Notes: generated from the sequence alone by a model not told the origin. A stretch of DNA of 64,000 bases from a gamma proteobacterium HTCC2207 (GCA_905182855.1 CAJJDA010000004.1:1-64000), one strand, 5' to 3'; numbered from the stretch's first letter, positions 11,197 to 43,989 are shown. Numbers and translations are program-made.

Positions 11197-11362
11197 GGGC
11201 TTTTTTCACACAGGATTTTTACCATGGCGACAGGTTTAATAAGATTGAGTGGGCAACGGGCCTTTAAAATACGGAGACTAAATGTCCCGCGGAGGGTATG
11301 CCATATTCATGGTCTAATTTTGGGGCGTGCGTTTTTTACCGTACCCGCGTTCGGTTAAGCCT

Positions 11363-12582
11363 ATGTCGGGTCCACTCTCGGGTTATAAAGTATTGGATAT
11401 GAGCCGCGTCTTGGCCGGCCCCTGGGCTGGCCAAATGCTTGCCGATCTGGGCGCCAGCGTGATCAAGATTGAACGACCCAGTGTGGGTGATGATACCCGT
11501 AGTTGGGGGCCTCCCTACCTCAAAGACAAAGCGGGCGACAATTGCGATGATGCGGCCTATTTCTTTTGTGCCAATCGCGGAAAACAATCAGTCACGGTCG
11601 ATATTACGCAGCCTGAGGGACAAAAAATTATCCATCAGCTCGCGGGTCAATGCGATGTTCTTATTGAAAACTATAAGGTCGACGGACTGAAAAAATATGG
11701 TCTCGACTATGAGTCTATCTCGGCCATTAATCCCAAGCTTGTGTATTGCTCAATTACCGGCTTTGGTCAAACTGGCCCCTATGCTAAGCGCCCAGGCTAT
11801 GATTTTTTAATTCAGGGAATGGGTGGCCTGATGAGTGTCACTGGGGCTCCAGACGATGAAGCAGGGGGCCCCGTTAAAGTGGGCGTGGCTGTCACTGATT
11901 TATTTACCGGCCTCTATGCCGCCAATGCCATACAGGGGGCACTCCTAGAGCGTCATCAATCGGGTTGGGGCAATATATTGATTTGGCTCTGCTCGATGTG
12001 CAGACCGCGGTGCTGGCCAATCAGGCTAGTAACTATCTGATTGGCGGCGACGTTCCGAAACGCCTTGGCAATGCCCACCCGAACATAGTTCCTTATCAGG
12101 CATTCGCAACAGCGGATAGCCATGTGATTTTGGCGGTGGGTAACGATGGGCAATTTAAACGTCTGTGCGACGCACTGGAGAAACCAGAATGGGTAACCGA
12201 TGATCGCTACACCATTAATTCAGCACGAGTCGAACATCGGCAGCAACTCTGCGCCGCCATTAGCCTCTGCCTACGTGAGAAAACCAGCGCCGCTTGGCTA
12301 CAGGCATTTCAAGAGGCAAAGGTCCCCTGTGGACCAATCAATAGCATCGACCAGGTATTTAGTGACCCGCAGATACTGGCACGAAATATGGTAGTGAAGG
12401 TTGCGGATCACAGAGCCGGCGAGATTCCTCTGGTGGCTAACCCAATCAAATACAGCCGTACACCCATCGTCTATACCTTGGCACCCCCAGCGTTAGGAAC
12501 CAGCACCGATGATGTTCTTGAGAATGATCTGGCGTACTCTGAATCACAGATAAAGGCACTGCGAGACAAATCAATCATCTAA
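11363..12582 (+). CDS. CaiB/BaiF family CoA-transferase, frameshifted near 11964-11972
   Basis: LSGYKVLDMSRVLAGPWAGQMLADLGASVIKIERP...; second frame GQYIDLALLDVQTAVLANQASNYL continues the family. Confidence 0.93.
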
Positions 12583-24405: not shown

Positions 24406-24451
24406 TGCAAAGGGACTACTCTATATACTAGAGATAATCTAGGAGTTGGTT

Positions 24452-25708
24452 ATGACCCTTCAAAACTTAACGCGACTGCATCCGATCCGCTGGCTCAGTG
24501 GCGTCAGAATTTCTGCGTTACTATTATTAACTTTGATTAGCTCATTTTCAGGCGCCGACTCATTGACTGAACAGCAGGTCGAGTCTGACTCGATCACCGA
24601 TTATATGGAAGCTATCGACAACAGTGAAGGTCAGTTCGGCGCATACGCAACCGAGCTTTCAGAGCTGTATCTAGGCTTAGGAAATGCTCTCTATGCCGGA
24701 GAGGAATACACCGAGGCTCTTGACGCCTTTCAAAAGGGCATGCAGATTGAACGAGTCAACTATGGCCTCAGCAGCCTGTCACAGTCCCCCTATTTGTTTT
24801 CCATCGCCGATACCGAGCGCTATCTTGGTAACTGGGATAAATCACAGCAGGCACTGGAGCGTGTCTATACCATCAACAGTAAAAACTATGGCGAGGTGGA
24901 TGTGCGCATGCTCGGGGTGCTGGACAAAATCCTAGCGTGGTACATGGATAGTTACAAAGATCGCAGGCCAAAGGGCGGCTACGCTAATCTGGTAATTTCC
25001 GAGCGCATAGCCCAGCGCATGTATGAAATCCTGAACAAGGATATGTCGCTGGATGATCCAGAGGCCCCTGATCGCTTTCGTCGCTTAGGTTACCTGCAAC
25101 ATGTTATTGCGGTTCACCTGAAGGAACACGGCGAGCCATCTGAGTCAGGTCTGAGTATTTCTATGTCTGGTTCCTCAGGTCGACCCAGCAAAGCAACTAC
25201 CTCGCATTTACACTTTCGCAGAGGCAAGTTAGCCTTAGAAAAAGTGATTGCTTCTGTGATCCAGCAGCCCAACAGTACTGAAACTGACCAAGCGCTTGCC
25301 ATTGCTGAACTTGGTGACTGGTATTTAGTGTTTGGTCAAAAAGCTCCAGCCACTGCAGCCTATCAGCTTGCTCTAGATGTACTGGAAACCTCCGAGGATC
25401 CCGAGCAAACCCGCGAGGACCTATTTGGCCTGCCTAGGATGATAGAGTTCAGTATGACTAAAAGCCCGCCAATGGCCGCCGGCGACCAGCCTACAGAATC
25501 ACAACTTGAACTAGCAATGATCATATCCACCTACGGAGTCCCCAACAACATTGAGGTAGTCAATCCGCCCGAGAGTCTCAGCAAAGAGGCATTGCGTGAT
25601 ATACGCAGAGACACCCGCGGAAAGCGCTTTAGACCGAAACTGGTTAATGGATTAGCCGAAGAAGCACCCTACCGCATGCTGTATGATCAACCGATACCAA
25701 AAGGCTAA
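24452..25708 (+). CDS. TPR-repeat exported protein
   Basis: Signal-like N-terminus; YLGLGNALYAGEEYTEALDAFQKGMQIERVNYG..., helical TPR-like repeats; RBS aggag. Confidence 0.75.
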   Translation: MTLQNLTRLHPIRWLSGVRISALLLLTLISSFSGADSLTEQQVESDSITDYMEAIDNSEGQFGAYATELSELYLGLGNALYAGEEYTEALDAFQKGMQIERVNYGLSSLSQSPYLFSIADTERYLGNWDKSQQALERVYTINSKNYGEVDVRMLGVLDKILAWYMDSYKDRRPKGGYANLVISERIAQRMYEILNKDMSLDDPEAPDRFRRLGYLQHVIAVHLKEHGEPSESGLSISMSGSSGRPSKATTSHLHFRRGKLALEKVIASVIQQPNSTETDQALAIAELGDWYLVFGQKAPATAAYQLALDVLETSEDPEQTREDLFGLPRMIEFSMTKSPPMAAGDQPTESQLELAMIISTYGVPNNIEVVNPPESLSKEALRDIRRDTRGKRFRPKLVNGLAEEAPYRMLYDQPIPKG

Positions 25709-25711
25709 ATC

Positions 25712-26503
25712 ATGAATACGAAATTTTCTCTTAGAGCCACAGCCCGGCCATCTGCACGATCGATAATCACAGCCCTAGCCGTGCTTTTTTGTTTGAGTGC
25801 TTGCCAAATGCCCTCACCGGCGAGCTCTTCAGGTCAATCAGGGTCGCCAAGTGGCGGCATGCCCTCACCGCCCAGCGGTGGCGGTGCCCCGAGCAGCGGC
25901 TCTCCGTCAACTAGCCCTTCATCACCGAGCAGTTCTGGAGGGAACGAGCCGGCAGAAGGCGGGGCAGAAGCGTCTGGAGACTCAGTAGGCGAAAGCGGCA
26001 GCCCCCAAGGCGGGGATGACGGTGGTATCGATGGCTCAGAGGGTGAAAGCATCGAAGGGCTAGACGCAGAACTGGACGCCTCTTTAGAAGGCTTCGATGA
26101 CAGCGTCGGAGGCAGTTCCTCACAGGGCCCTAGCGAAATAGATATACTGAGTCCCAGTGGCTCGAGCGGTGTTACCTTGGGCACAGATGAGCCACTCTTT
26201 GAGGAAGCTGACAGCGGCATACCTAATGTAGGTAATGCTGAGGCCGAACAGGCCGCTCAAGACAGCCCTGAGTCGCCCGATAGTGCCGAAGGGGCAGCCG
26301 ACCAATCAGACCCGCAAGGTGGAAAAATGGGTGATGGGCAACAACCGGCCGACGCTGCCGTAATCCCGATCCCCGAGGATATAGATGATGGTCAGGGTGA
26401 CGGTATTGTGCTTCGCCAACTCCGTGATGCCGCGATGCGGGAAACAGACCCTGTTCTCCGTGAAAGACTCTGGGATGAATATCGACGAATCAAAAATCAA
26501 TAG
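25712..26503 (+). CDS. Low-complexity Ser/Gly/Pro/Glu-rich lipoprotein with ordered C-terminus
   Basis: Lipobox FCLSAC; long acidic Ser-Gly region; C-terminus IVLRQLRDAAMRETDPVLRERLWDEYRRIKNQ. Confidence 0.75.
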   Translation: MNTKFSLRATARPSARSIITALAVLFCLSACQMPSPASSSGQSGSPSGGMPSPPSGGGAPSSGSPSTSPSSPSSSGGNEPAEGGAEASGDSVGESGSPQGGDDGGIDGSEGESIEGLDAELDASLEGFDDSVGGSSSQGPSEIDILSPSGSSGVTLGTDEPLFEEADSGIPNVGNAEAEQAAQDSPESPDSAEGAADQSDPQGGKMGDGQQPADAAVIPIPEDIDDGQGDGIVLRQLRDAAMRETDPVLRERLWDEYRRIKNQ

Positions 26504-26522
26504 CACAGGCTCGATAACAACG

Positions 26523-27755
26523 ATGATGAAAAAGACCGAATCAATCAGTGCGCGCAATACACTGTTACTAAACGCGCCCAGTCTAGCCGCAGTGCTGCTT
26601 GGACTGCTGGTCAGTGTTGTGACACCCCAAACTGCCACCGCTGGAATCGATAAGGTGACATCGTCGACAGCCTTACCGCTGAAAACACCCTCCGCGCCAA
26701 TTGCCGATGCCGCCTTATTAGATGTCGGCATTACGCCATTGAATGATGGACTAGATCTCACTGATGAAGATGACACGGTATTTCCAGAGGTCCGTTTTGC
26801 CGAGGCCATTTATTTTTCTAACCAGCTGGCTAAAGTGATGGAAAAAAGCGGCGCCTGGGGTGCGATAAGGGTGACACCCAGCGACGACGTTATTACTGAT
26901 GTTTATATCAGCGGCACGATTCTGCACTCAGATGGCGAGACTATGAAGTTACAAATTACTGTCAAAGATAGCCGAGGGCAGCAGTGGATAAGTAAAAAAT
27001 ACAATCAAACCACCGGAAAGTATGCCTACGACCGTCGCCTGAAGAACCTGGCTGATCCCTTTCGAAATCTGTTTGTGCGCATCGCTAATGATATTCTCAA
27101 ATATCGCGAAAAACTAAGCCAAGAAAAAGCATTGGAGTTGCGCACCATCTCTGAACTGCGCTTTGCCAAACAGTTTTCACCAGAGGCCTTCGACGACTAT
27201 ATAGCCGAAAAACGAGACGGCATCCTAACCATTGAACGACTGCCGGCTGAGAACGACAAAATTTTGCAGCGGGTGCGCAAAATTCGTGACCGCGACTATC
27301 TATACATAGATACCATGCAAGATTACTACGACGGCTTCTCTCAACAAATGCATCTAGCCTATCAAGATTTTAGACGCTCATCCTACGAGTCAGTGGTCAA
27401 GGCGAGGCAGCTTGATCAGCAAGGAAACCGGAGAGTAGTGGCGGGTATTGGTGCAATTTTAGCCGGCATCTATGGTCGCACTGAGTCAAACACTCGTATC
27501 GGCAGAGATGCCAGTACCGCCACTGCAGCCACGGGTGGTTTTATCCTCAAATCCGGGCTCGAGAAAAAACAGCAGGCCGCCACCTACAATGAAGCAGTGG
27601 CTGAAATGGGTTCCTCACTAGAAGCCGAGATCGCACCTCAGGTGATAGAGCTCGAGGATCGCACCGTTACGCTCACAGGCACGGTTCAAGGACAGTATGA
27701 GCAGTGGCAGGCACTATTAGATAAGATCTATAAGCAGGAACGCGGTGCGCTTTAA
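26523..27755 (+). CDS. Exported hypothetical protein
   Basis: Signal-like N-terminus; coding frame intact; start chosen at MMKKTES (26475 also possible). Confidence 0.7.
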   Translation: MMKKTESISARNTLLLNAPSLAAVLLGLLVSVVTPQTATAGIDKVTSSTALPLKTPSAPIADAALLDVGITPLNDGLDLTDEDDTVFPEVRFAEAIYFSNQLAKVMEKSGAWGAIRVTPSDDVITDVYISGTILHSDGETMKLQITVKDSRGQQWISKKYNQTTGKYAYDRRLKNLADPFRNLFVRIANDILKYREKLSQEKALELRTISELRFAKQFSPEAFDDYIAEKRDGILTIERLPAENDKILQRVRKIRDRDYLYIDTMQDYYDGFSQQMHLAYQDFRRSSYESVVKARQLDQQGNRRVVAGIGAILAGIYGRTESNTRIGRDASTATAATGGFILKSGLEKKQQAATYNEAVAEMGSSLEAEIAPQVIELEDRTVTLTGTVQGQYEQWQALLDKIYKQERGAL

Positions 27756-27765
27756 GCCAAGCCCT

Positions 27766-29202
27766 ATGAACAAGCATCCAGTACCACCTCATCCACAGCC
27801 GGCTAATACGCAGAAAATTATCATAGGCATACTGCTACTTGTGGCTGGGTTAGTCATCCTAGTATTACCCAATTTAGTCTCTAAACCCTGGATAGCAGAC
27901 ACAAGTGAGTCGGCCACCATAGGTGCAGCCAAAACCATGGTTACCCCGTCCACAGCGGCAGAAAAAACTCAGTATCGGCAGAGCTCGCAAACGGTACTGG
28001 CAACTATTATTGCGGTACGTGATCGTCTTAATAGTCAGGGTATCGAACTCTGGGCAGACTTCGAATATCGCCAAGCTATGGCCTTAATAGAACTGGGTGA
28101 CGAGCAGTATATTCAGGGCAATTACGGTGCATCTTTAGAGACTTACAAGCAGTCGCTAGGGCAACTCAGCAACCTCGAACAGCTTGGTCAGGCTCGCCTA
28201 GCTCAGGCCCTGACGGATGGTCTAAACGCGATTGAAAATGCCTCACCAGCCGACTTAAGTATTGCCGAGGATGCCGCGCAGTTGGCCGTGGCTATTGCAC
28301 CCAACAGCTCGCAGACGCAAAATCTCGCTCAGCGGACCGCCCTATTGCCGCAGGTAATTGAGCGACTTCAGGCTGGCGACAGGCTCCTGGCCAGCAAACA
28401 GTTCGAGGCCGCCAGACGCGCCTATCAGCAGGCCGCAAACCAAGATGGTCAGCATCTCAAGGCTTCTGCCGCACTGGACTCTATTGAAAAGACGATAATA
28501 GGAGAGCGTTTTCGGGACTATATGAGTGCGGGATTCAAGGCGCTGGATCAGGACAAGTTTGTCGCGGCGAATCAGGCTTTTAATAATGCGGGGAGTCTTT
28601 ACAACAGTGACCCCGCCGTCGCAAAGGCGCTGTCCCAGGTTAGAACAAGACGGTCACAGGTTGCTGTAAGCCTGAAAATGGAAGAGGCCATTGGCTATGA
28701 AAAAAAGGAACTCTGGTCTACGGCTCTAGAGATTTATCAATCTTTGTTGCTCACAGATCCCTCATTAACTGAGGCTAAAATCAGAATCATCTCGGTCAGC
28801 GTGCGAGCAAATCTGGATAATCAAATCAATGGAATCCTTGCCGACCCGTTAAAATTGGCCTCATCTAGGGTCTATCGCGAAGCCCAAAAACTGCTGCAGG
28901 ACGCCATGAGTATTAACATGCAAGGCCCCCTGTTAAGTCGCCAAATTACCGATTTAGATACCGTCTTGCGACAGTCAAGAACAGCCGTCAAGGTGGTTCT
29001 GCAGTCAGATAACCTGACCGATGTCACCCTGTTTCGTGTTAAGCAGCTAGGTACATTTGAGCGCACCTCAGTGACACTAAAGCCTGGCCGCTATGTGGCC
29101 GCAGGCAAGCGCCTTGGCTTCAAAGACGTGAGAATTGAATTCACTATTACTGGCCAACCACTGCCAGCACCGATTCTGGTAAGCTGTACCGACGCGATTT
29201 AG
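27766..29202 (+). CDS. Membrane-anchored TPR protein with C-terminal beta-rich (PEGA-like) domain
   Basis: TM IIIGILLLVAGLVILVLP, TPR-like repeats, C-terminal SVTLKPGRYVAAGKRLGFKDVRIEFTI. Confidence 0.75.
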   Translation: MNKHPVPPHPQPANTQKIIIGILLLVAGLVILVLPNLVSKPWIADTSESATIGAAKTMVTPSTAAEKTQYRQSSQTVLATIIAVRDRLNSQGIELWADFEYRQAMALIELGDEQYIQGNYGASLETYKQSLGQLSNLEQLGQARLAQALTDGLNAIENASPADLSIAEDAAQLAVAIAPNSSQTQNLAQRTALLPQVIERLQAGDRLLASKQFEAARRAYQQAANQDGQHLKASAALDSIEKTIIGERFRDYMSAGFKALDQDKFVAANQAFNNAGSLYNSDPAVAKALSQVRTRRSQVAVSLKMEEAIGYEKKELWSTALEIYQSLLLTDPSLTEAKIRIISVSVRANLDNQINGILADPLKLASSRVYREAQKLLQDAMSINMQGPLLSRQITDLDTVLRQSRTAVKVVLQSDNLTDVTLFRVKQLGTFERTSVTLKPGRYVAAGKRLGFKDVRIEFTITGQPLPAPILVSCTDAI

Positions 29203-29291: not shown

Positions 29292-31361
29292 ATGCCCGAC
29301 GATCAAAAACAGCCTATCTTAGCAGCCGAATTCAAGCCTTTGACGGGCGCTGGCAGCAAACGAAGCCTACCCATTTCTTCCGGCATGCTCAGCCTAATAG
29401 TACTTGCCGGTTTCGGCATTATTATTATGGCGTATCTGTTCGTCGCGCGCGCAGTCGTCTTTCAAACAGTCCCTCCCGAGACTCAGATCTCTGTTAGTGG
29501 TCTATCATTTAACATCGGCGACAACTATCTGCTGCTAAGCGGTGACTATGACATTACTGCAACCGCTGACGGCTATTACCCATTAATTGAATCAATCACC
29601 GTGGGCGATGCCGCTAGCCAAGATGTTGGCGTCCAGTTGCTGCCATTACCGGGCAATCTCGCCGTTATCTCAGATTTGGAAGATATACAGGTCACTATTG
29701 ATGATCAGCCGGTCGGTACCGTTCCAGGGATCATAAAAGCTATTAGTCCGGGCATCCGCAAGATGGTCTTTAGCAAGTATCGCTATTTTCCATTGCAGCA
29801 AGAAATTGCTATCGAAGGTCGTGATAGAACCCAGTCGGTGGATATTAGTTTGCGACCCGCCTGGGGCGCAATGCAGTTAACGTCTGAACCCACCGCTGCC
29901 CAAGTCTATATTGACGACCGCCTTGTGGGTCAAACACCCCTAAGTACTGAAGTCTTAGAAACGGGCAGTCGGTTAAAGCTGGTCCTCGCGGGTTATAAGA
30001 CCTACCAGCAGGAGATTTTAGTCAAGGCGGGCACCAGTGTCACACATCCTCCCATTAAGCTAATCGTTGCCGACGGTCTGCTGCAGTTGAGCAGTACGCC
30101 GTCGGGTGCGAGTATCACAGTCAATAATGAATTTGTTGGCAGCACACCAATGACGCTGGCCATGGCGCCATTTAAGCAACATCGCCTGGCGTTCTTTTTG
30201 GAAGGCTATTTAAAAACCACAACAGCAGCGACATTAAAACCGGAGAAAACCACCGTATTAGCTGTTGATCTAGTGCCCAATATCGGCAGTATCGCCTTAA
30301 CTATTAGCCCCAAAGGGGCCCGTGTTTTGGTCGATAATCGCTACCAGGGAGATGGTGACCGCACCCTGTCCCTAACTGCAAAACCCCATCGGCTCAGTAT
30401 TGAAAAATCTGGCTATCAGACAAAATCGCTCTCCGTGATACCTAGGCCCGGACATGAACAGGCACTGAGTATCAAACTGCTAACATTGCAGGAAGCCTAC
30501 TGGGCTTCTCGGCCCCCAGCGATCCAGTCCTCGGTGGGTTCACCGCTTGCATTATTCCGTCCCCAACAGAGCTTTACTATGGGTGCACCGCGACGACAGC
30601 CCGGCCGTCGTGCGAATGAAGTGGAACGCAGAGTGAGTTTGGATAGACCCTTTTATCTCGGTACACGAGAAATCAGTAATGCCGAATATCGCAGCTGGAA
30701 ATCAAGCCATAGCTCCTCAGCACTGCAGGGCCAAACATTGGACAGAGACCGACAGCCTGTTGCCGGTCTTACTTGGGAAGATGCCGCGCTGTATTGCAAC
30801 TGGTTGAGCCGCCGCGAGGGTCTGCCGCTGTTTTACCGCATGGAGAACGGTGTGGTCAATGGATTCAACTGGGACGCTCACGGTTATCGCCTGCCCACCG
30901 AGGCTGAATGGGCCTGGGCAGCAAGAGTTAACACAGACGGCAGCAGTCAGACCCTGCCCTGGGTCAATGGCCTCTATCCACCAACCGATGTCGTTGATAA
31001 TTATGCCGATCGGAGTGCTTCGAGACTCATTCCATTCACTATCGCTAGCTATAATGACCTGACACCCGCGTCAGCAGTCGTAGGTAGCTTTAAACCTAAT
31101 GGCAAAGGCCTTTACAATATGAGTGGCAATGTCTCTGAGTGGGTGAATGACTTCTATGACGTGCGTCCCAATCGCGGTGAATCCAGCGCCGATCCCACCG
31201 GACCAATAACCGGTGTCGCCCATGTTATCCGCGGTGCGAGCTGGGCGCTGGGGTCACGTACTGAATTGCGCCTGAGTTATCGTGAAGCCGGCACCGACAA
31301 ACGTCTGGATGTTGGCTTCAGAATCGCTCGTTATGTTGACAGTCTAGGAGCTAAGCCATGA
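29292..31361 (+). CDS. PEGA-repeat protein with C-terminal FGE/SUMF1-fold domain
   Basis: TM near N-terminus; repeated PTAAQVYIDDRLVGQTPLS / PSGASITVNNEFVGSTPM / PKGARVLVDNRYQGDG; FGE motifs GYRLPTEAEWAWAAR, NMSGNVSEWVNDF, IRGASW. Confidence 0.92.
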   Translation: MPDDQKQPILAAEFKPLTGAGSKRSLPISSGMLSLIVLAGFGIIIMAYLFVARAVVFQTVPPETQISVSGLSFNIGDNYLLLSGDYDITATADGYYPLIESITVGDAASQDVGVQLLPLPGNLAVISDLEDIQVTIDDQPVGTVPGIIKAISPGIRKMVFSKYRYFPLQQEIAIEGRDRTQSVDISLRPAWGAMQLTSEPTAAQVYIDDRLVGQTPLSTEVLETGSRLKLVLAGYKTYQQEILVKAGTSVTHPPIKLIVADGLLQLSSTPSGASITVNNEFVGSTPMTLAMAPFKQHRLAFFLEGYLKTTTAATLKPEKTTVLAVDLVPNIGSIALTISPKGARVLVDNRYQGDGDRTLSLTAKPHRLSIEKSGYQTKSLSVIPRPGHEQALSIKLLTLQEAYWASRPPAIQSSVGSPLALFRPQQSFTMGAPRRQPGRRANEVERRVSLDRPFYLGTREISNAEYRSWKSSHSSSALQGQTLDRDRQPVAGLTWEDAALYCNWLSRREGLPLFYRMENGVVNGFNWDAHGYRLPTEAEWAWAARVNTDGSSQTLPWVNGLYPPTDVVDNYADRSASRLIPFTIASYNDLTPASAVVGSFKPNGKGLYNMSGNVSEWVNDFYDVRPNRGESSADPTGPITGVAHVIRGASWALGSRTELRLSYREAGTDKRLDVGFRIARYVDSLGAKP

Positions 31362-31600
31362 GAGCCTTATTGTTCGTCCTGTTAGTCATGCCCCTAGGGC
31401 TTTTTGCTCAAGAGCAGATTGAGGATATAGAGCCCACGGAGGCTATAAAGCCTGCAGCTAACATGAAACCTCCAGCCACAATTTCACCCGCCGCACCTAT
31501 AGCGCCAATTTCCGAAGCAGGAGCCGTCAGCGATATTGATTTTAAACCCAGCGAGGAAATCTCCGAGGATTTTTCAATAGCACTGCCCTCAGATATTTAA
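31358..31600 (+). CDS. Small exported Pro/Ala-rich protein
   Basis: 80 aa, signal peptide, ATGA overlap with the preceding gene; C-terminus DIDFKPSEEISEDFSIALPSDI. Confidence 0.7.
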   Translation: MRALLFVLLVMPLGLFAQEQIEDIEPTEAIKPAANMKPPATISPAAPIAPISEAGAVSDIDFKPSEEISEDFSIALPSDI

Positions 31601-31630: not shown

Positions 31631-32437
31631 ATGAATACTTCAACCAATCGTGCCAGTAACGAGATGTTTTTCCAGTTAACCGCCCTTTTACTGGCTATCA
31701 TTATTGTCCACATTATTTTTGTTACCGTGGTCCGACCCAACGCTGACAGCACCATTCGCCAGCATGCGGAAATGGTCGCAGCCGGTGAAGAATATCAGGT
31801 GCCACGCTCATTTTTTATTGTCATTAAAGATCTAGAACAGGAAGCCTGCTTTATTCTGATGTTTTGGTCGCTAGCCATTATGGGTTACAAAACCCGCACC
31901 ACGATTCGCGAACAACGCATGCTAAATCAACCACTAATATCGATTGCCGAAGGCTCCAGAATACTGCCTGATGATGCATCACAGCTTACACGCCCACTAC
32001 AATCACTAGCCGATGAAGAACGCAGCTATCTGTTACCTAGAGCCTTGAATACCGCCCTTAGCCGCTTTCAGGTTACCGAAAGTGTGCAGTTTGCCACCGA
32101 AGCAGTGAGCAGTGTCTGCGCCACAGAAAATGATCGCCTCGACTCAGAACTCTCCATGGTGCGTTACATTACTTGGGCTATTCCATCCATTGGCTTTATT
32201 GGCACCGTGCGCGGTATCGGTGCGGCATTGGGCCAAGCTCACGAAGCTATTGCTGGTGATATTGCTGGCGTCACGAGCAGTCTCGGCGTGGCCTTTAACT
32301 CGACGTTTATTGCCCTTTTAATAAGTATGGTCGTGATGTTTTTTATGCATCAATTACAGCTCTCGCAAGAACGGCTAGTACTCGACTCTCAGTCCTATTG
32401 CGAAAATAATTTGCTGCGCTTTTTAAAAGCGAAATAG
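31631..32437 (+). CDS. MotA/TolQ/ExbB-like proton channel family protein
   Basis: TMs and AIPSIGFIGTVRGIGAALGQAHEAIAGDIAGVTSSLGVAFNSTFIALLIS. Confidence 0.88.
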   Translation: MNTSTNRASNEMFFQLTALLLAIIIVHIIFVTVVRPNADSTIRQHAEMVAAGEEYQVPRSFFIVIKDLEQEACFILMFWSLAIMGYKTRTTIREQRMLNQPLISIAEGSRILPDDASQLTRPLQSLADEERSYLLPRALNTALSRFQVTESVQFATEAVSSVCATENDRLDSELSMVRYITWAIPSIGFIGTVRGIGAALGQAHEAIAGDIAGVTSSLGVAFNSTFIALLISMVVMFFMHQLQLSQERLVLDSQSYCENNLLRFLKAK

Positions 32438-32440
32438 ATC

Positions 32441-33709
32441 ATGACTATAGCCATCTTGGAATTAAACGATCAGGCTTTGCTGATTCAAACGGAGGAGGGT
32501 CGGTCACATATTGAGCCCGGTTTTGCTAGTGTTACTCCCTCAGGTATTGAAAGTGGCGACAAAGCCTGGGCCATGGCATGGCAAAACCCGCAAGACTGTT
32601 TCAATCAATACTGGCGACAACTGAACCAGCTGCCTCTGCCAAGAAAAACAAACTGGGCGCGGCACCATGGCGACATAGCCTATGCCCAAATCAAGCATAT
32701 GCTCGAAAGTGTTGGTTCCCCCAGCAATATAATTCTGGCGGTTCCCGGCTGCTTTAATGAAGAGCAGCTAGCGCTGCTGCTAGGTTTGGCTCAGGCTATT
32801 CCGGTGCAAGTGGATGCGGTTATCGACAGCGCTCTGGCGATGAGCTTGTATGCTCAGAAGGAAACCCTCCTGCTTGATATACAGCTGCAACAGTCTGTGG
32901 TGAGTCTCATTAGCGAAATCAACGGCAACCTAGTCGTCAGTGAGCAATCAATCATTCCAGATCTTGGGATCCTATATCTCTATAACGGTGTCGCCCGACA
33001 TATTAGTGATCGCCTTATTGATGACTACCGATATGATCCATTGCATACTTCAGAGGGAGAGCAAACCATCTATGATCAGCTGCCCGCTTGGTTAAAACAG
33101 TTCGGATGGCAGAACGAACTTTCGATCAACCTGCCGTCGCCGCGCGGTGATCTACCTATGATATTGCATAGAAAACAAGTCGCCCTAATTATTGAGCAGC
33201 GTCTGGAGAGTCTTAACAACATTATTGAAAAACATCCCAATACGCAAATCACCTTGGCTCATAGCGCCAGTTTATTGCAAGCGATACTGCCCAGGTTTGC
33301 CGGCGCCTTGGTCATGTCACAGACCAGTGGTGTTGATAACTGCCTAACCGCTCGTCGAGAGATTATCGCTAGTAGCGAAACCTTGCACAAAATAATCAGT
33401 TTAGAAAAAGCGGGTGGGAAATCGAATAATCTCCAACCAAAGCCTCGCTGCGCTAGCCACCTGTTGTATCAGAATCAGGCCTGGTCGCTGGACAAGCCGC
33501 TCAGCATAAACCTGCAAGACGGCGAGCTCATTCTGACTAACAGTATTGATAAGAATGCCGCACTAGTGGTGGTTATTAAAGATCAGTCACTGCAGATAAT
33601 CCATCAGTCAGACACCATTGATACGCAGATACCACGGACCTGTGAGCCGGGACAAAGATTCGTATTAGCCGGACATAAACTGAGTTTTATTGAGGTCAGC
33701 AATGCCTAA
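32441..33709 (+). CDS. Degenerate actin/Hsp70-like protein (tentative)
   Basis: SNIILAVPGCFNEEQLALLLGLAQAIPVQVDAVIDSALAMSLY resembles Hsp70-like segment; lacks clear phosphate motifs. Confidence 0.5.
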   Translation: MTIAILELNDQALLIQTEEGRSHIEPGFASVTPSGIESGDKAWAMAWQNPQDCFNQYWRQLNQLPLPRKTNWARHHGDIAYAQIKHMLESVGSPSNIILAVPGCFNEEQLALLLGLAQAIPVQVDAVIDSALAMSLYAQKETLLLDIQLQQSVVSLISEINGNLVVSEQSIIPDLGILYLYNGVARHISDRLIDDYRYDPLHTSEGEQTIYDQLPAWLKQFGWQNELSINLPSPRGDLPMILHRKQVALIIEQRLESLNNIIEKHPNTQITLAHSASLLQAILPRFAGALVMSQTSGVDNCLTARREIIASSETLHKIISLEKAGGKSNNLQPKPRCASHLLYQNQAWSLDKPLSINLQDGELILTNSIDKNAALVVVIKDQSLQIIHQSDTIDTQIPRTCEPGQRFVLAGHKLSFIEVSNA

Positions 33710-34757
33710 GAAGCGCCGCAATATAGCCTTTAGTTTGTCCTTTTTGGACATCATGGCCTGCGGCTTTGGCGCGGTGACTCTGCTGTTTTTAATTCTGCGC
33801 CACAATGCCACCGAAATTCAAACACCTGATGTGAGACTGTCTGCAGAAGTCAATATGCTGCTTATGGATATCCGTCAGGCCGATGCGGAAAAAACTCTGC
33901 TACTAAACAGTCTTGAACAGATAGATTTAGAATTGGTTAAGGCTCAGGGTCTTTCTGATCGAGTACTCACCGATTTACAGGAAACTGAAAAAAGTATCCA
34001 GTCCGATCCCAATGAGATGGATAAGCTGCGACTTCAGGTCGAAAAACTTGAAGATGAAACCGCCCAAATGGAGGAGGTAGAATTCGGCGATAGGGTGAGG
34101 GAGTTTGTTGGTGATGGTAATCGGCAATATCTTACCGGCCTCAAATTAGGCGGTGAGCGCGTCCTCATTTTGGTTGATGGCTCCGCCAGTATGCTTGCCG
34201 ACACTGTTGTAAATGCAGTGCGTAGACGCAATATGGATGACGAACAAAAAAAGCAGTCACCAAAATGGCAGTGGACATTGCGCACGGTAGAATGGTTGGT
34301 CGCGCAGCTTCCCGCGAGCAGCCGCTTTCAAATCTATATCTTTAATATCAGTGCCGAGCCCGCTCTGATAGATTCAAAGGGAGAATGGCTTGATGCGGCA
34401 GACTCGCTAGTCATGGAAGAGGCCATTGCTGGTCTGAGACAGTATTCGCCTGGGTCGGGGACCAGTTTAACCAATGGCTTTGGCGCCATCGCCGATTTTG
34501 AAGATCGTCCAGATAATGTTTTTTTACTCACTGATGGTCTGCCAACACAGGGTAAAAATCCACCGAAGAAATACATGGTTAGCGGTGGCCAGCGACGCAG
34601 TTACTTTTTGGCGGCAATGAAAGAGTTCCCTCGGGGAGTGCCGCTGAATACTATTTTATTTCCCATGGAGGGAGACCCTGAAGCTGCGGCGTTGTTCTGG
34701 CAGACAGCCCTAGACACCGATGGTGCCTTTATTGCGCCATCTAGAGACTGGCCATGA
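33702..34757 (+). CDS. VWA-domain protein with N-terminal TolR/ExbD/MotB-like TM
   Basis: SLSFLDIMACGFGAVTLLFLIL TM, coiled coil, VWA MIDAS RVLILVDGSASM, PGSGTSLTNG, VFLLTDGLP. Confidence 0.88.
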   Translation: MPKKRRNIAFSLSFLDIMACGFGAVTLLFLILRHNATEIQTPDVRLSAEVNMLLMDIRQADAEKTLLLNSLEQIDLELVKAQGLSDRVLTDLQETEKSIQSDPNEMDKLRLQVEKLEDETAQMEEVEFGDRVREFVGDGNRQYLTGLKLGGERVLILVDGSASMLADTVVNAVRRRNMDDEQKKQSPKWQWTLRTVEWLVAQLPASSRFQIYIFNISAEPALIDSKGEWLDAADSLVMEEAIAGLRQYSPGSGTSLTNGFGAIADFEDRPDNVFLLTDGLPTQGKNPPKKYMVSGGQRRSYFLAAMKEFPRGVPLNTILFPMEGDPEAAALFWQTALDTDGAFIAPSRDWP

Positions 34758-35743
34758 GAAAGCAGCGTAGAGAATTACAGGAGGCGAACGTCTCATTTCT
34801 TGATGTTATTAGCTGCGGCTTTGGCGCTATTGTATTACTGTTGATAATCGCTCGAGTCGGTGATCCCGCAGCATTAGAGGAGGCCGACAATCAATTAATG
34901 GGGTCTGTAAAAGAGTATCAGGAGCGACTATTTGAAATACGTGGTGAATCGGTGGTACTTGACGAGCGTTTAAAGTCGCGCCAAGAGCAACTGTCAGAAC
35001 TGACTGAACGCATTGCGCGACTCAAAGCAAAACTCGCCAGCGTCTCGAAGCAGTCCAGTCAGCTATCTCAGTCACAGTCTCGGGAAAAACAGCAGCTCCA
35101 ACTGGTACTACAGGTGCTGTCAGAAGAAATGGAACGGCTGCTGGGACCCGATTTCCAGCGTCAAAATGACCTGGTTGGCGGTATCCCTGCGGACAGTGAC
35201 TATATTATTTTTGTCATAGATACATCTGGTAGTATGCAGATAGCAGCCTGGGAAAAAGTCAAAAAAGAGATGCTCAATATTTTGGATATTTATCCAGAGG
35301 TCAAGGGGATACAGGTACTCAATGATATGGGCCAGTATATGTTTAGCGGCTATAGTAACAAGTGGATCCCTGACAGCCCCGCCATGCGTAAGAACATTAT
35401 CAAGACATTAGCTAGCTGGTCGCCCTTTAGTAATTCTAGCCCAGTGGAAGGTATTAATACCGCTATTCAAGCCTTTTACAAACCAGGCCGAAAAATCAGT
35501 ATTTATACTCTGGGGGACGATTATCAGGGACGCTCCATACGCAGCGTAGTCAAGGCAGTGGATCGACTTAATAAAGCTAACCGAGGCGCTAAACGGCTAG
35601 TACGCATTCATGCAATCGGGTTTCCAGTGCACTTCCCTCCAGGGGGGACACCCAGCGCATCGGCAATAAAGTTTGCCGCACTGATGCGCGAACTTAGTTA
35701 CAACAATGGAGGAACCTTTATCGGCTTAAATAGCCTCAACTAA
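34754..35743 (+). CDS. Second VWA-domain protein with N-terminal TolR/ExbD/MotB-like TM
   Basis: VSFLDVISCGFGAIVLLLII TM, coiled coil, VWA DYIIFVIDTSGSM; ATGA overlap with upstream gene. Confidence 0.88.
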   Translation: MRKQRRELQEANVSFLDVISCGFGAIVLLLIIARVGDPAALEEADNQLMGSVKEYQERLFEIRGESVVLDERLKSRQEQLSELTERIARLKAKLASVSKQSSQLSQSQSREKQQLQLVLQVLSEEMERLLGPDFQRQNDLVGGIPADSDYIIFVIDTSGSMQIAAWEKVKKEMLNILDIYPEVKGIQVLNDMGQYMFSGYSNKWIPDSPAMRKNIIKTLASWSPFSNSSPVEGINTAIQAFYKPGRKISIYTLGDDYQGRSIRSVVKAVDRLNKANRGAKRLVRIHAIGFPVHFPPGGTPSASAIKFAALMRELSYNNGGTFIGLNSLN

Positions 35744-35772
35744 AGGACTAATAACTTATGCTAACGATAACT

Positions 35773-36408
35773 ATGAAATCATTCGCCGCGCTGTTCGCCT
35801 TATTCATCCTTGGTGGTTGTAGTTCCTCGGCCTCGGTGCAGTTAACCGGCGACTTTCCAAAGGTCCTAGCAAAGCCGAAGCCGCTCAGTGCCGCGGTGGT
35901 GTTTGAACCTAGCTTTGCCACCTATATAGCGCAGCCCAATGCTAAAACAGTCATAGATATGGGTGCAGCTCAGGTGCGGCTGCTGCGCAATGCTTTTGCC
36001 GGTTTATTTGGTCGCCTCGAGTTTGTCGGCAGCAGAGAAGAGATTACCATCGATAATGCTATGGTCATTATTCCCTCTGTGCGTGAAGTACAGGTGTCCA
36101 CGCCATCTGAAAACTACCAGAATGTCTTCGAGGTATGGATTAAATATAACCTAGATCTTGAATCCACAGCGGGCGAATCTATCGACAGTTGGTTTATGCC
36201 CGCCTACGGCAAAACACCGGATGCCTTCATGGCCTCAAAGAGTGATGCTATTGAGCAGGCGGCAATCAGCGCGCTGCGCGATGCAGGCGCAAAACTAACA
36301 TTGGATTTTTATCGTATCCCTTCAGTCAACAACTGGGTGACAGAGGAGCAAGAACGGGCTAGACAGGCTAGTCTTCAGCAGTCAGACAAATCAGAGGTGT
36401 CACCATGA
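35773..36408 (+). CDS. Lipoprotein, unknown function
   Basis: MKSFAALFALFILGGCSSS lipobox; ORF intact. Confidence 0.75.
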   Translation: MKSFAALFALFILGGCSSSASVQLTGDFPKVLAKPKPLSAAVVFEPSFATYIAQPNAKTVIDMGAAQVRLLRNAFAGLFGRLEFVGSREEITIDNAMVIIPSVREVQVSTPSENYQNVFEVWIKYNLDLESTAGESIDSWFMPAYGKTPDAFMASKSDAIEQAAISALRDAGAKLTLDFYRIPSVNNWVTEEQERARQASLQQSDKSEVSP

Positions 36409-37076
36409 GCCCTACTAACAAGTTGATCCCAGTGCTATTTGGCGTCTTCTTAGCCGGCTGCAGCGCCACCACCACCATTGATGAATATAGACCTACTGGT
36501 GAAGCCATAGAGTTAAATGTTGCCGAGCAGGTGGTGATATTAGGGCGCAGAGATGCTGGGCACTATGAAACTGACCGTGAGTTTGTTGACTGCGTCGCCA
36601 GCAAAATGCGTGGCGCAGATATTGGCATACTGCCCGAGCAAGAGTTCATCGATGCTATCTATCCCTGGTTTGAACCGCGCACCGCACCCAAGGGTCTTTC
36701 GCGCCTTAAACGCTTAATGCAGGACACCAGTATCAAAGCCGAGGTGAGTAAACGGGCGGTACGCTATCTGGTCTGGTTAGATGGTTCGACCGAAACGCTT
36801 GATTCCAGCGGTTCTATGAGCTGTGCAGTCGGCCCAGGTGGCGGTGGCTGTTTTGGTTTTGCGAAGTGGGACAAGCTATCGGTTTACGAGGCCATTGTCT
36901 GGGACCTACAAGACCTCACTGAAAAAGGGCGGGTGCGCGTCGATTCTGAGGGCACGTCATATCTGATTGGTGCGGTGGCCCCTATTCCCTTTTTATCCCC
37001 GGTAAAAGACGATGCCTGCTCTAGCCTAGGCAACCAGCTCAAGAGTTTTTTCTCTATTACACCGACAACCCAATAA
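36405..37076 (+). CDS. Lipoprotein, unknown function
   Basis: Lipobox FLAGCSAT; 4-nt overlap with upstream gene. Confidence 0.75.
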   Translation: MSPTNKLIPVLFGVFLAGCSATTTIDEYRPTGEAIELNVAEQVVILGRRDAGHYETDREFVDCVASKMRGADIGILPEQEFIDAIYPWFEPRTAPKGLSRLKRLMQDTSIKAEVSKRAVRYLVWLDGSTETLDSSGSMSCAVGPGGGGCFGFAKWDKLSVYEAIVWDLQDLTEKGRVRVDSEGTSYLIGAVAPIPFLSPVKDDACSSLGNQLKSFFSITPTTQ

Positions 37077-37089
37077 TTAGGCCAATACC

Positions 37090-38594
37090 ATGACTTGTAT
37101 TCCTCGCCAGATAATTGCCGCCCTCCTCATCAGCTGTTTTTGGGGTGGTGGACTGGTACTTTCCGCAAATACCTGGAGCGCAGTTTCTGGTGCCGATATC
37201 TACAAGGAGGTACTTGAAGGTACCGCCATTTATGATGACCCAGTGCTGGATGCCTACATTAAGGAACTCGGGGCGGAGATTATTGCAGTGTCCGAAATGG
37301 CCGGCGAAAAATTTACCTTCACATTACTCGACTCACCTGACTTGAATGCCTTTGCCACCCGAGATAACTACATCTATGTCAATCGTGGTCTGCTTAATTA
37401 TGTTAGCAATGAAGCCCAGCTGGTTTCAGTTCTGGCGCACGAGGTAGGTCACATTACCCGAGACCATGTTACCGGCCAGGAGGGTAAAGCCACCGGTGCC
37501 CAGATGCTCTCAGCTATTGCCGCAGTATTATCGGGCAGCAACGAGGTTTATGAGGCCAGTATGGCCTATGCCAACTCAATCATTCGTGGCCACGGTCGGC
37601 GCAACGAACTGGAAGCAGACGAAGCGGGCGCTGAATATATGGCCAAGCTAGGTTACGCGCCTACCGAAATGCTCAGCATGCTGTCCATTATGAAAGACTA
37701 TGAAACCCTGCAAAAGGATCGGGCCAAAGCCAAGGGAGCATCCAAGCAGACCTATCACGGCATTTTTTCCAGTCACCCACGCAACGACAGTCGTCTGCGC
37801 ACGGTAGTCAGCTAAGGCTAACGCCGTAAAGTCCAAGAGAACAAGAGACAATGGGGCCAGTCGCTACCGCGCACTAACCGACGGCTTAGTCTGGGGCGAA
37901 AATTTTCTGGCTAAGGAACAAAAGCCGGAGCGATTCTCGAATATGCGTCTTAGGGTGCGCTTTGACTTCCCTAAAGACTGGGTCAGCAATGCCAACCCCA
38001 GTCCGTTTATGGCCAGTGGTATGCCCGCAGATAAAACCGCTGTATTAACTATGCAGCCCAATTGCTCGTACGAGTCAAAGCCCAGAGGAATACCTTTACA
38101 ATCATCTAAAGGTATCCCAGCTAACCGACGGTAAAGCTATAGCACCAGCTCGACTTAAGGGTTTCAGCGGTATTTTACCTGGCGGCGAGAACCGCTCCGA
38201 TAGCCGTATCGCCGTAATCTATTACAAGCTTAACGCATACCTATTTAGCGGCGAAATCATAGAACAAAACGCCACTGCCGAAACAGACCTCGTTTCGGAT
38301 AAAGACGTCGCAGCCGGCAAAGAGCCTTCAGAAAAACCAAAAACCTTTGCCGAAAGAGACCAGCAGTTCGTTGCCGCTATTAACACCTTTCGACCTATTT
38401 CAAGCCGCGAAATTGCTGGCCAAAAGCCAAAGACAGTACGTTATGTCAAAGCGACCCGCGCGACTACCTTTGCCAAGCTAGGCCCAGCACTTAAGCTCAA
38501 TGCGGTAGACGTGCAAGATCTGCGTATAATTAACGGCCACTATCCCAGCGGTGAGCCCAAGGCTGGGGACTGGATTAAAATATTTAAACAGTAA
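37090..38594 (+). CDS. Exported M48 family metallopeptidase with C-terminal extension, two frameshifts (about 37813, 38057)
   Basis: VLAHEVGHITRDH; ELEADEAGAEYMAKLGY; continuation in other frames DGLVWGENF...MRLRVRFDFPKDW...QSPEEYLYNHLKVSQLTDGK...INGHYPSGEPKAGDWIKIFKQ. Confidence 0.85.
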
Positions 38595-39345: not shown

Positions 39346-40110
39346 GCCATCAATGCAGCAAAGAATTTTTTCAGACCTGGAGCGCCTGACTCTTGCCAGG
39401 TTTTAAGCGCCGCAGTGCCAACGATTGCGAGGTCGGCAGAACCCCGTAAAAAGTCCATATCCTCCTTGCCACTGATACCAAAGCCGACACCGATCGGCAT
39501 ATTGGTATGCTGCCGACAGCGCTCAATCAGCGCCAAGACGTCGTCACCCATTTTGGTTTTCGACCCGGTCACGCCCTTTCGCGCGACCACATAAACCATA
39601 CCACGACTCAGGGCTCCCAGTTGCGCCAGACGTTTATCACTGCTCGTTGGAGTCATGAGAATAATCGGCTCAATACCCGCTTTCTCAGACAACTGATGCA
39701 GGTTAGCTGATTCCTCCACCGGCAAATCAGGCAAAATGTAACCGACACCGCCTGCGTCCTTGAGACGCTGCACAAAGCGCTCTTCGCCCATTTTAAAAGC
39801 GGTATTGTAGTAACCCATCATCAACACTTTAAACGGAAACCGGGCACTGACCTCGCGCATAAACTCAAAACACTGGTCTACCGTGGTGCCTGATTTTAAC
39901 GACTGTTCGTTGGCATGGGCAAACAGGGGACCATCGGCACTAGGTTCAGAGAAAGGGAAACTGTAATTCCACCAGATCAACGCCAGCTGCAGCCATTATC
40001 TCTAACGCTTGCATATTAGCCTCAAAGGAGGGGTAGCCACAGACCACATGGGCCATTACCAACAGATCTTTGTCTTTTTTGCGCTCGGCAATAAAATGCT
40101 GTAGACCCAT
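39342..40110 (-). CDS. trpA: Tryptophan synthase alpha chain, frameshifted near 39958-39960
   Basis: N-terminus MGLQHFIAERKKDKDLLVMAHVVCGYPSFEANMQALEIMAAAGVDLVELQFPF and FSEPSADGP...YVVARKGVTGSK...IGVGFGIS in two frames. Confidence 0.95.
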
Positions 40111-41367
40111 TAGCCTCTCTCCGCACGGTATTGATCCGACTTACCTTCAACAAAAGACTTCCATTTGGCATCATCCAGGGCATCAGCAATGGTAAAGATA
40201 TCTTTATCCCCTCGTCCAGACTGATTAATCAAAATAATTTCATCTTTAGCCATAGTCGGAGCCTCTTTAAGCGCCGTTACAAAGGCGTGGGTACTTTCTA
40301 GCGCAGGGATTAACCCTTCGGTACGCATAGTCAACTTTAACGTCTCCTTGACCTCCTCATCGGTTGCCGCTTCAAAACGTACCTTGCCCTGTTCCCAGAG
40401 GTGGCTAAAGATGGGATTAATACCAATATAATCGAGGCCAGCGGCAACCGAATGTGTCTCATTCATATTGCCGTCATCGTTTTGCAAGAAATACGTTTTA
40501 TAGCCCTGAGCCACACCCACTGAGGCGTCGTCATAGGCCAGGCGAGCACCATGCATGTAGGTACCGACACCCAGACCGCCAGCCTCGACACCAATCAGCT
40601 CGACATCATCATCGAAAAAACCCTGAAAAATCCCCATAGCATTAGAGCCACCACCGACGCAGGCATAGACACGATCAGGTAATCTTCCGGTCTGCGTCAA
40701 CATCTGTTCCCGCGCTTCAAGGCCGATAATCGATTGGAACCAGCTAACCATTTCAGGGAAAGGGTGCGGGCCACAGGCGGTACCCAAAATATAATGGGTA
40801 TCTTCCATATTGGTCACCCAGTCACGCATACATTCATTAATAGCGTCTTTGAGCGTCTTCTGGCCATCCTGCACGGCGATAACCTCTGCCCCGAGGTTTT
40901 CCATCCAGAAAACATTGGGGCGTTGCCGCGCGACATCGACGGCACCCATATAGATTTTACAGTCAAAACCAAAGCGCGCGGCCATTGTTGCCGTGGCAAA
41001 CCCGTGCTGTCCGGCACCCGTCTCAGCTATCACCTTGCGCTTACCTAGGCGTCTCGCACAGCAGGCCCTGTCCCATGACATTATTAATCTTGTGGGAACC
41101 TGTGTGATTCAGATCGTCGCGTTTTACATAAATCTGCGCGCCACCCAGTTGCCTAGACAGATTTTCCAGATGCGTCACCGGAGTCGGGCGACCTGAATAG
41201 TTTTGCAGTAGCCTGACATAGTCCTGCCAAAATTTAGGGTCTGCTTTGCATTCACGAAAGCACAGCAGCAGCTCCTCGATCGTTGCATGCAGAATCTCAG
41301 GTAGAAAAACGCCACCGTATTCTCCGTAGTAGCCTTCGCGGCCGTCGGAGAAGTCAAAAATATCCAT
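40110..41367 (-). CDS. trpB: Tryptophan synthase beta chain, frameshifted near 41058
   Basis: YGEYGGVFLPEILH, VKRDDLNHTGSHKINNVMGQGLL and [19 protein letters not shown] in two frames; CVGGGSNAMGIF. Confidence 0.96.
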
Positions 41368-41653
41368 GAAAATCCTCAATAAATCGTGGCAGTTTCCCCA
41401 AAGGAAACCCGTTTGTGAAATAAATAACGTTAAAGGTCTATTTTAGCCAACTCCTTGCATTGGCACAATGTTACCGCTGCGGCGTTCCCTCTAATTAAGG
41501 CAATTTCGGGTGTATACGGCCATAATCTGTAATCGGCTTGTCGCACTAAGAGAGTTATTTGATCAACCCCAGAAGTCACGCTGGACTAGGCCGGGTTATC
41601 CACATGTTTGCCACCGAGTTACCAACGCTTAACGTAGGCAGAATGACAAATAA

Positions 41654-41700: not shown

Positions 41701-41834
41701 AAACTCTTCGCCGTAGTCAAGAATAAAAAAGCATCAAACAAGGGTACATTTAATTATAGGGACGTCTTAAATATACATAAATTTGGCCTCAGAACCGCTA
41801 GGTACCTGAGTTGAAAAAGAAAGAAGGTCAGTCA

Positions 41835-43989
41835 ATGAGCAGTGCACCCAAACTAAAAACCGTTAATGCCGTGAAGAAAAAACCACAAATTCAAATGCAA
41901 CATGCGTCCCTCGATATCTGGGATAAGAAGTATCGTCTCAAGGATAAAGATCAGCGTCCTGTGGATGCCGATATTGATGCAACCTATCAACGGGTCGCCA
42001 AGGCATTATCCGATGTAGAAGATGAAGACAAGCGCGAAGAATGGTCTGAGCGTTTTGTATGGGCACTCAAGCAGGGCGCTATTCCAGCTGGGCGTATTAT
42101 TTCCAATGCTGGAGCTCAAGCCTACAAGCCCGCTACCTCTACAATCAATTGCACCGTTTCAGGCATTGTGCCTGATTCCATGCAAGGGATTCTTGAGCGC
42201 AACCTGGAAGCGGGCCTGACGCTGAAAGCAGGCTGCGGTATTGGCTATGAATTCTCCACATTGCGTCCCAAGGGAGCCTATGTTTCTGGGGCTGGCGCCT
42301 ATACCTCTGGCCCGCTATCTTTTATGGATATCTATGACAAGATGTGTTTTACCGTCTCGTCCGCTGGCGGCCGTCGTGGTGCCCAGATGGCAACCTTTGA
42401 TGTCAGCCACCCAGATGTTTTTGATTTTGTTCGCGCCAAACGTGAAGACGGACGTCTGCGTCAGTTCAACCTTTCACTCCTGATTACGGAAGAGTTCATT
42501 GAAGCGGTTCGCAACGATGGCACCTGGGATCTGACCTTCCCTATCAGTGCCAAGGAAATCGAAGGTGGATTGGACCTCAAGGGTGACAACGTAGTTTGGA
42601 AGCCATTTCCAACCAAAGAGAACTACATTAGCAATGATGAGGGCCTTGTCGCCTGTCGCATCTACGAGACAATCCGTGCACAGAAACTGTGGAATGCCAT
42701 CATGTCGTCCACTTACGACTATGCGGAGCCAGGTTTTATTCTGATCGACCAAGTAAACAAAAATAACAACAACTGGTTCTGCGAAGATATTCGTGCAACC
42801 AACCCCTGTGGTGAGCAGCCGCTACCTCCCTATGGTAGCTGTTTGTTGGGCTCAGTAAACCTGACTAAGTTTGTCCGCAACCCGTTCACCCCAGACGCCT
42901 TCTTTGACTGGGAAGAGTACGCCGAGGTGGTTGCCGTATTCACTCGTATGCTCGACAACGTGGTAGCAATAAACGGTCTGCCACTTGAAGGCCAGCGCAA
43001 AGAAATAGAATACAAACGCCGTCATGGCATGGGGTTTCTAGGGCTAGGATCAGCCATTACTATGCTGTGTATGAAGTATGGTGATGAACAATTCACTAGA
43101 GTTCACGGATCGTATCGCCCGTGACATGGCTGTAGCTGGCCTGAAAGCTGGTCTGGAACTAGCGCGCGAGAAGGGCCCTGCGCCCATTATGAATGATGAA
43201 TTCACCGTCACGGCGGCCATGCTGTTTAAGCAGCCGGACATGGTGAGAGATGGCATTAAGGTGGGTGATAAGTTAAAGGGAAAGGTCCTGATAGCGAAGT
43301 ATAGCCGCTATATGCAGACCGTAGCTCAGGCAGCACCTGAACTCGTTGAGGCATTGATCGAGGAAGGTTGTCGCTTTAGCCACCATTCATCGATAGCGCC
43401 GACAGGTACTATCTCGCTATCACTAGCAAACAACGTCAGTAATGGTATTGAGCCCAGTTTTGCTCATCACTATTCGCGCAATGTCATCCGTGAGGGCAAG
43501 AAGTCAAAAGAAAAGGTAGATGTTTTCTCTTATGAGTTACTGGCCTATCGTACATTGATTAACGAAAAAGCCATGCCCTATGGCACGACAGAAGAAGATA
43601 CGCTACCCGATTACTTTATGAGTTCTGAAAATATTATGCCGCGAGCTCATGTGGATATTCAGGCGGCTGCTCAAAAGTGGGTTGATTCTTCAATCTCAAA
43701 GACAATTAATGTACCTACAGATAGTGACTACGAAGAGTTTAAGGATATTTATCTGTATGCTGCTGAGAAGGGCCTTAAAGGTTGCACGACTTTCCGCTTT
43801 AATCCAGAGGCGTTCCAAGGCGTATTGGTTACTGAGCAAGACTTGGAGAAGACTACCTACAGCTTTACGCTAGAAGATGGCTCCACCGTTGAATTTAAAG
43901 GTAATGAAGAAGTTGAGTACGATGGCGAAACCCATACTGCTGCCAACCTTTTTGATGCATTAAAGGAAGGTTACTACGGTAAATTCTGA
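41835..43989 (+). CDS. nrdJa: Adenosylcobalamin-dependent (class II) ribonucleotide reductase catalytic part, frameshifted near 43092
   Basis: RIISNAGAQAYKPATSTINCTVSG, GCGIGYEFSTLRP, ATNPCGEQPLPPYGSCLLGSVNL; second frame SLEFTDRIARDMAVAGLKAG, APTGTISL. Confidence 0.93.

Follow-up and report, generated by a model that had tools for sequence, protein, structure and literature searches.

In ExbBD, TolQR, and MotAB, the shaft of the motor is a homodimer that carries either a TolR-like or an OmpA-like head. A family of vWA proteins tethered by a TM segment has been described that co-occurs very tightly with tolQ homologues and has no tolR or exbD neighbours (Williams-Jones et al., 2025, PMC12204202, Fig. 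4c,d). The vWA proteins are found mostly as heterologous pairs with a conserved Asp in a "transpore helix" (TPH), and AF3 models place the two vWA TMs inside a TolQ-like pentamer beside a Thr ring (PMC12204202). Idiomarina is given there as the reference organism of the TPH-vWA system, for which no deletion phenotype is reported (PMC12204202).

The locus considered here lies in a 64,000-nt window (the whole stretch of DNA that was analysed) of a 1.64 Mb genome assembly, 76% complete, whose nearest named relatives are SAR92/Porticoccaceae. As in the TPH-vWA family, genes for TM-tethered VWA proteins adjoin a tolQ-like gene in Proteobacteria, without tolR, exbD, or motB, and heterologous pairs, a TM Asp and a Thr ring can be found. 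Since all tested features agree, the locus is taken as a member of this family, judged by its features and not by a sequence match to Idiomarina. The idea that heterologous VWA proteins act as B-type pore subunits is already published, in print by June 2025 (PMC12204202). What is added here is a conserved operon, in which a seven-gene core can be told apart from accessories (a pseudo-Hsp70-like protein and lipoproteins), whereas the available part of the published account names no further operon genes for the family (PMC12204202). Also added are the presence of the system in another proteobacterial class and the occurrence of the Asp-bearing TM beside MotA-like genes with non-VWA partners. Our main reading, to which we give a probability of roughly 0.78, is that the operon encodes an ion-driven 5:2-type motor of the inner membrane with the helices of two different VWA proteins, VWA1 and VWA2, in its pore.

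With TolQ-TolR and ExbB-ExbD, the locus shares the channel family, the two pore Thr, and a single-TM B subunit whose Asp lies towards the cytoplasmic side of its TM. Unlike in these systems, a coiled coil and a VWA domain replace the TolR/ExbD domain, two different B proteins are present, and the A subunit has four TMs by eye and lacks a counterpart to TolQ E173. A four-TM A subunit and an Asp-bearing TM are also features of MotA-MotB, but here there is no OmpA-like peptidoglycan-binding domain by Pfam and no flagellar context; a flagellar stator was dropped as a candidate because the VWA proteins have a VWA domain instead of any OmpA-like Pfam match. GldL-GldM with GldK (T9SS/gliding) resembles the locus in having a 5:2-family motor beside an FGE-fold partner, although the anatomy is only analogous, as GldM-type domains are missing here and FGE domains are common. 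Regarding ZorA-ZorB (Zorya), the MotA-family channel is shared and weak ZorA matches are obtained (E = 0.001, PADLOC), whereas no ZorB or effector genes were matched and the operon is conserved within lineages. Zorya defence was dropped, the weak PADLOC match being to the channel only, with no ZorB match for the VWA proteins.

Gene organization and conservation of the operon

The genes form a tightly packed operon on the + strand, from 24446 to about 38591, with the following features:

24446..25708, + strand: TPR protein, probably where the operon starts, not present in all loci (TPR profile match, locus comparison)
25712..26503, + strand: low-complexity Pro/Ser/Gly-rich protein with a lipoprotein-like N-terminus and a conserved C-terminus, core operon (ORF, locus comparison)
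26385..27755, + strand: exported protein of ~430 aa, core operon, no family match (ORF, locus comparison)
27745..29202, + strand: single-TM TPR-like periplasmic protein, core operon (Pfam, locus comparison, TM alignment)
29292..31361, + strand: single-TM PEGA/FGE protein, core operon (Pfam, profile match, locus comparison)
31358..31600, + strand: small exported protein of 80 aa, poorly conserved (overlaps the end of the PEGA/FGE gene)
31631..32437, + strand: A-type subunit, channel of the MotA/TolQ/ExbB family, 268 aa (Pfam, TolQ profile match)
32441..33709, + strand: Hsp70/actin (ASKHA)-like protein of 422 aa, accessory (AF2, Foldseek, motif columns)
33702..34757, + strand: VWA1, candidate B-type subunit, 351 aa (ORF, AF2 model, TM alignment)
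34754..35743, + strand: VWA2, second and different candidate B-type subunit, 329 aa (Pfam VWA, TM alignment)
35758..36408, + strand: lipoprotein-like protein, accessory (ORF, locus comparison)
36405..37076, + strand: lipoprotein-like protein, accessory (ORF, locus comparison)
37090..38591, + strand: gene of an M48-type peptidase, interrupted and spread over three frames (tblastn with an intact relative)

The exported protein at 26385..27755, for whose type csgG3 is a working name only, has a lipobox-like N-terminus in many relatives, and its true start, inside the ORF, is uncertain. In the PEGA/FGE protein, four PEGA repeats are combined with a C-terminal FGE/SUMF1-like domain that matches the GldK profile with E = 4e-27, below the cut-off of that profile; the FGE alignment has one conserved Cys column and no C-terminal Cys pair. 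The gene at 32441..33709, between the channel and VWA1, was absent from a preliminary description of the region. Its product gives an AF2 model with a pLDDT of 93 that matches Hsp70, DnaK, and Ssz1 in Foldseek (E about 1e-16), while a Pfam search returned no match. Its phosphate-binding motifs are degenerate by motif columns, with ELND in place of DLGTT; the protein also has a C-terminal beta region and, over its whole length, no evident TM. From the model, the protein is an apparent pseudo-chaperone or pseudo-actin. Judging from the ORF list, four more genes seem to be interrupted like that of the M48 peptidase, namely those of PriA, a CaiB-type CoA-transferase, TrpB, and ribonucleotide reductase (3253-5473, 11327-12582, 40110-41379, and 41811-43989), which suggests indel errors of the assembly and not real pseudogenes.

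The usual gene order, namely exported protein, TPR, PEGA/FGE, channel, Hsp70-like, VWA1, VWA2, lipoproteins, and M48, is kept in most of the ~110 loci compared. The core consists of seven genes, encoding the low-complexity lipoprotein-like protein, the exported protein, the TPR and PEGA/FGE proteins, the channel, VWA1, and VWA2. These seven alone, with the accessories missing, can be found in one family belonging to another class of Proteobacteria (loci L182-L187 and L201), whose minimal operons lack the Hsp70-like gene; an old transfer between lineages is a possible origin of the core operon in this second class. Within the marine Gammaproteobacteria the system is widespread (SAR92, Porticoccaceae, Halieaceae, Microbulbifer, Colwellia), with relatives at 49-53% identity in Colwellia, Thalassotalea, and Pseudoalteromonas.

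The channel subunit

The protein encoded at 31631-32437 matches Pfam MotA_ExbB (PF01618) over TM3-TM4 with E = 1.7e-13 and 50.9 bits, the cut-off being 22.9, and a profile built from 25 of its relatives finds solved TolQ in the PDB (E = 0.0044). Four TMs can be delimited by eye, at about residues 14-36, 66-88, 176-200, and 219-245, of which just TM1 and TM4 passed the threshold of a hydropathy script. Two Thr residues, both invariant in 122 aligned rows, correspond to those of TolQ: T192 (codon 32204-32206) aligns with T145 and T225 (codon 32303-32305) with T178, positions which we take to be equivalent to Thr148 and Thr181 of ExbB. Essential residues of the ExbBD system include Thr148 and Thr181 in ExbB and Asp25 in ExbD (PMC12905483). 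TolQ E173 has no counterpart in the same 122 rows, where the column holds V, I, or L (V220 in the present protein).

Two VWA proteins with an Asp-bearing transmembrane helix

The likely start of VWA1 is the ATG at 33702, the ORF list giving a TTG upstream at 33690, and VWA2 starts with the ATG at 34754. VWA1 displays a short basic N-terminus, one TM, a coiled coil, and then a periplasmic VWA domain with the MIDAS motif DGSAS; VWA2 has one TM, a coiled coil, and a VWA domain with DTSGS, the MIDAS Asp and Ser being essentially invariant in both alignments. While VWA2 matches Pfam VWA directly (E = 8e-4), the match of VWA1 as a single sequence is weak (0.078); all 44 aligned VWA1 sequences, however, match Pfam VWA_2, the best with 3e-9. 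The AlphaFold2 model of VWA1 has a mean pLDDT of 78, about 90 in the VWA part and low at the TM. It aligns with solved VWA domains in Foldseek with E down to 1.2e-6 and has a helical, coiled-coil-like stretch between TM and VWA (H44-99, H103-127). As modelled, the VWA1 head is a VWA fold. PDB sequence matches of the VWA1 and VWA2 profiles were set aside as mostly coiled-coil noise.

The preliminary description had proposed a MotA/TolQ-like channel paired with two VWA proteins, each with an N-terminal TM followed by a coiled coil and a VWA domain with MIDAS. This gene content is confirmed by the Pfam match of the channel, that of VWA2, and the VWA_2 matches and model of VWA1; the domain order and the two MIDAS motifs were likewise correct, and the TM strings it quoted for both proteins are exact.

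Each TM contains an Asp, at position 16 in VWA1 (codon 33747-33749) and 17 in VWA2 (codon 34802-34804), within a motif that is roughly [SA]-[FL]-[LI]-D-x3-[CG]-[GA]-x-G-A. This Asp is invariant in 121/121 rows of VWA1 and 129/129 of VWA2, rows in which some genomes were entered twice, so that independent cases are fewer. In alignments of the two other single-pass proteins of the operon, TPR and PEGA/FGE, no conserved acidic residue is found in the TM. VWA1 and VWA2 are distinct proteins that are paralogous in the TM, as a profile comparison of the two segments gives a probability of 99.5%. Neither protein matches ExbD (PF02472) in Pfam at E up to 1; hhalign of the VWA TM against ExbD/TolR gives a probability under 1%, like the controls, and the best ungapped register, when the Asp is excluded, is shifted by 3. 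Judged by sequence, the likeness to ExbD/TolR is limited to a single N-terminal TM and its Asp.

A different arrangement could be considered, in which the VWA proteins stand outside the ring as TolA/TonB-like force transducers while another protein fills the pore. vWA transducers encoded next to TolQR genes do exist as a separate family, marked by an SHLS motif whose His lies in the TM and by two accompanying tolR-like genes (PMC12204202). Here, by contrast, neither VWA1 nor VWA2 has a TM His (H34 of VWA1 follows the TM), no operon gene is tolR-like, and each TM has its invariant Asp, which makes this arrangement highly unlikely.

Co-occurrence of the VWA pair with the channel

Both VWA genes are present in 44/194 genomes of the order, which are related and do not represent 44 independent events. 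By a manual match of the VWA and channel tables, these are also the 44 genomes in which a channel homologue scores over 300 bits, here called strong. In the remaining 150/194 genomes, neither the VWA pair nor a strong channel homologue was detected. An apparent VWA2 match in one further genome (G125) was rejected as a false match to the coiled coil. The association does not depend on strict adjacency: the channel gene lies downstream of VWA2 in G298 and is unlinked, on another contig, yet kept, in G419. By Pfam and locus comparison, the operon contains no TolR, ExbD, or MotB gene, and the only ExbD genes nearby are those of five Microbulbifer loci, on the opposite strand and about 8-9 kb away. 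The earlier suggestion that the VWA proteins are B-type pore subunits is supported by this shared distribution, by the lack of TolR, ExbD, and MotB, and by the invariant Asp and the pore Thr.

Plain membrane-anchored adaptors of the BatA/BatB kind, in which the Asp would be structural and unrelated to ion flow, have in their favour that BatB is among the Foldseek matches of the VWA1 model and that a number of the partner genes (TPR, PEGA) resemble scaffolds. This explanation appears very improbable, given that the VWA pair always comes with a MotA-family channel and with no further B subunit, that the Asp is invariant, and that this Asp-TM turns up again next to additional MotA-like genes.

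It could also be argued that one VWA protein forms a homodimer in the pore, the other being a peripheral partner or part of a second, alternative motor on the same ring, as the two are distinct, TM-paralogous proteins each with its own Asp. This is unlikely, since VWA1 and VWA2 occur together in 44/44 genomes, almost all of these have as many ring genes as VWA pairs, and the published vWA pairs are predominantly heterologous (PMC12204202). In the loci inspected, VWA1 and VWA2 are two different genes side by side. Two genomes harbor, in addition to the standard operon, another and divergent one (L051 and L053) with the channel and both VWA genes, with 32-35% identity in VWA2 and without the Hsp70-like gene.

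The proposed heterodimeric motor

The motor would be proton-driven (or sodium-driven), located in the inner membrane, and of the 5:2 type. Five copies of the 31631-32437 protein would make up the ring, whose pore would hold a single VWA1 and a single VWA2 by their N-terminal helices, each offering one Asp as ion-carrying group that faces the T192/T225 ring. Ion flow would turn or pull the stalk, a coiled coil of two strands. Gripping a ligand via their MIDAS metal sites, the VWA heads would hand force on to partners in the periplasm or outer membrane from the same operon, i.e., the TPR, PEGA/FGE, and lipoprotein-like components. The placement in the pore, the stoichiometry, and the ion coupling are what we infer from the channel family and the published AF3 models. 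The force-transducing role of the heads and its target are a guess, based on the exported or single-pass nature of most partners and on the force transduction across the envelope by related motors. Covariation between TM3/4 of the channel and the VWA TMs was not clearly above expectation by MI or mean-field DCA, and coiled-coil by coiled-coil pairs numbered 66 vs. 12 expected, without a parallel register; with an Neff of 20-77, too low for a telling result, this apparent enrichment is not used as evidence. Points that weigh against the proposed motor are the VWA TM matching ExbD/TolR no better than controls do, the missing counterpart of TolQ E173, the lack of a clear covariation signal at this low Neff, and the two non-VWA Asp-TM loci without a MotA-like gene in their vicinity.

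If true, a shaft that is an obligate heterodimer and ends in adhesion-type, metal-dependent heads would set this motor mechanically apart from ExbBD, TolQR, and MotAB. The operon also supplies a definite gene set for the study of a motor for which no deletion phenotype is reported (PMC12204202).

Asp-bearing helices without a VWA domain

A profile of the 42-residue N-terminus, built from the VWA proteins alone and scanned over 274 genomes, finds the VWA pairs and also a second family, which lacks a VWA domain, has helices of the SALDLFASAMGAFIL type, and is encoded in clusters together with FHA and PP2C proteins and Ser/Thr kinases. A MotA-like gene is close by in 2/4 of the non-VWA loci found with this profile; in the other two, one of which is cut by a contig end, there is none nearby. 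Two more non-VWA loci were met from the MotA side. Since the same Asp-TM can be found near MotA-like genes in proteins without a VWA domain, the comparison supports the TM, and not the VWA, as the putative motor-coupling part. More tentatively, and with a chance that we put clearly below even, the Asp helix, which differs in sequence from ExbD and MotB, may serve as a transferable shaft that proteobacteria have joined to different periplasmic heads in a whole class of 5:2 motors. The present locus would then be a seven-gene trans-envelope machine of this class that includes PEGA/FGE and TPR components and whose shaft is an obligate heterodimer.

The SALDLFASAMGAFIL clusters (L202:7040-11621, L204:6360-11942, L209:5516-8750, and L210:1078-10949) comprise an FHA protein, a MotA-like channel, a PP2C phosphatase, exported proteins, a Ser/Thr kinase, and the single-TM Asp-TM protein. 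With their FHA, PP2C, and kinase genes, they perhaps encode a phosphorylation-regulated 5:2 motor. At L206:6002-9226 and L207:5537-8689, another MotA-like gene (345 aa) precedes genes for a short protein with a single TM and for a protein of 517-561 aa with an Asp-bearing TM (ALVDILANGVAVLIIVIV).
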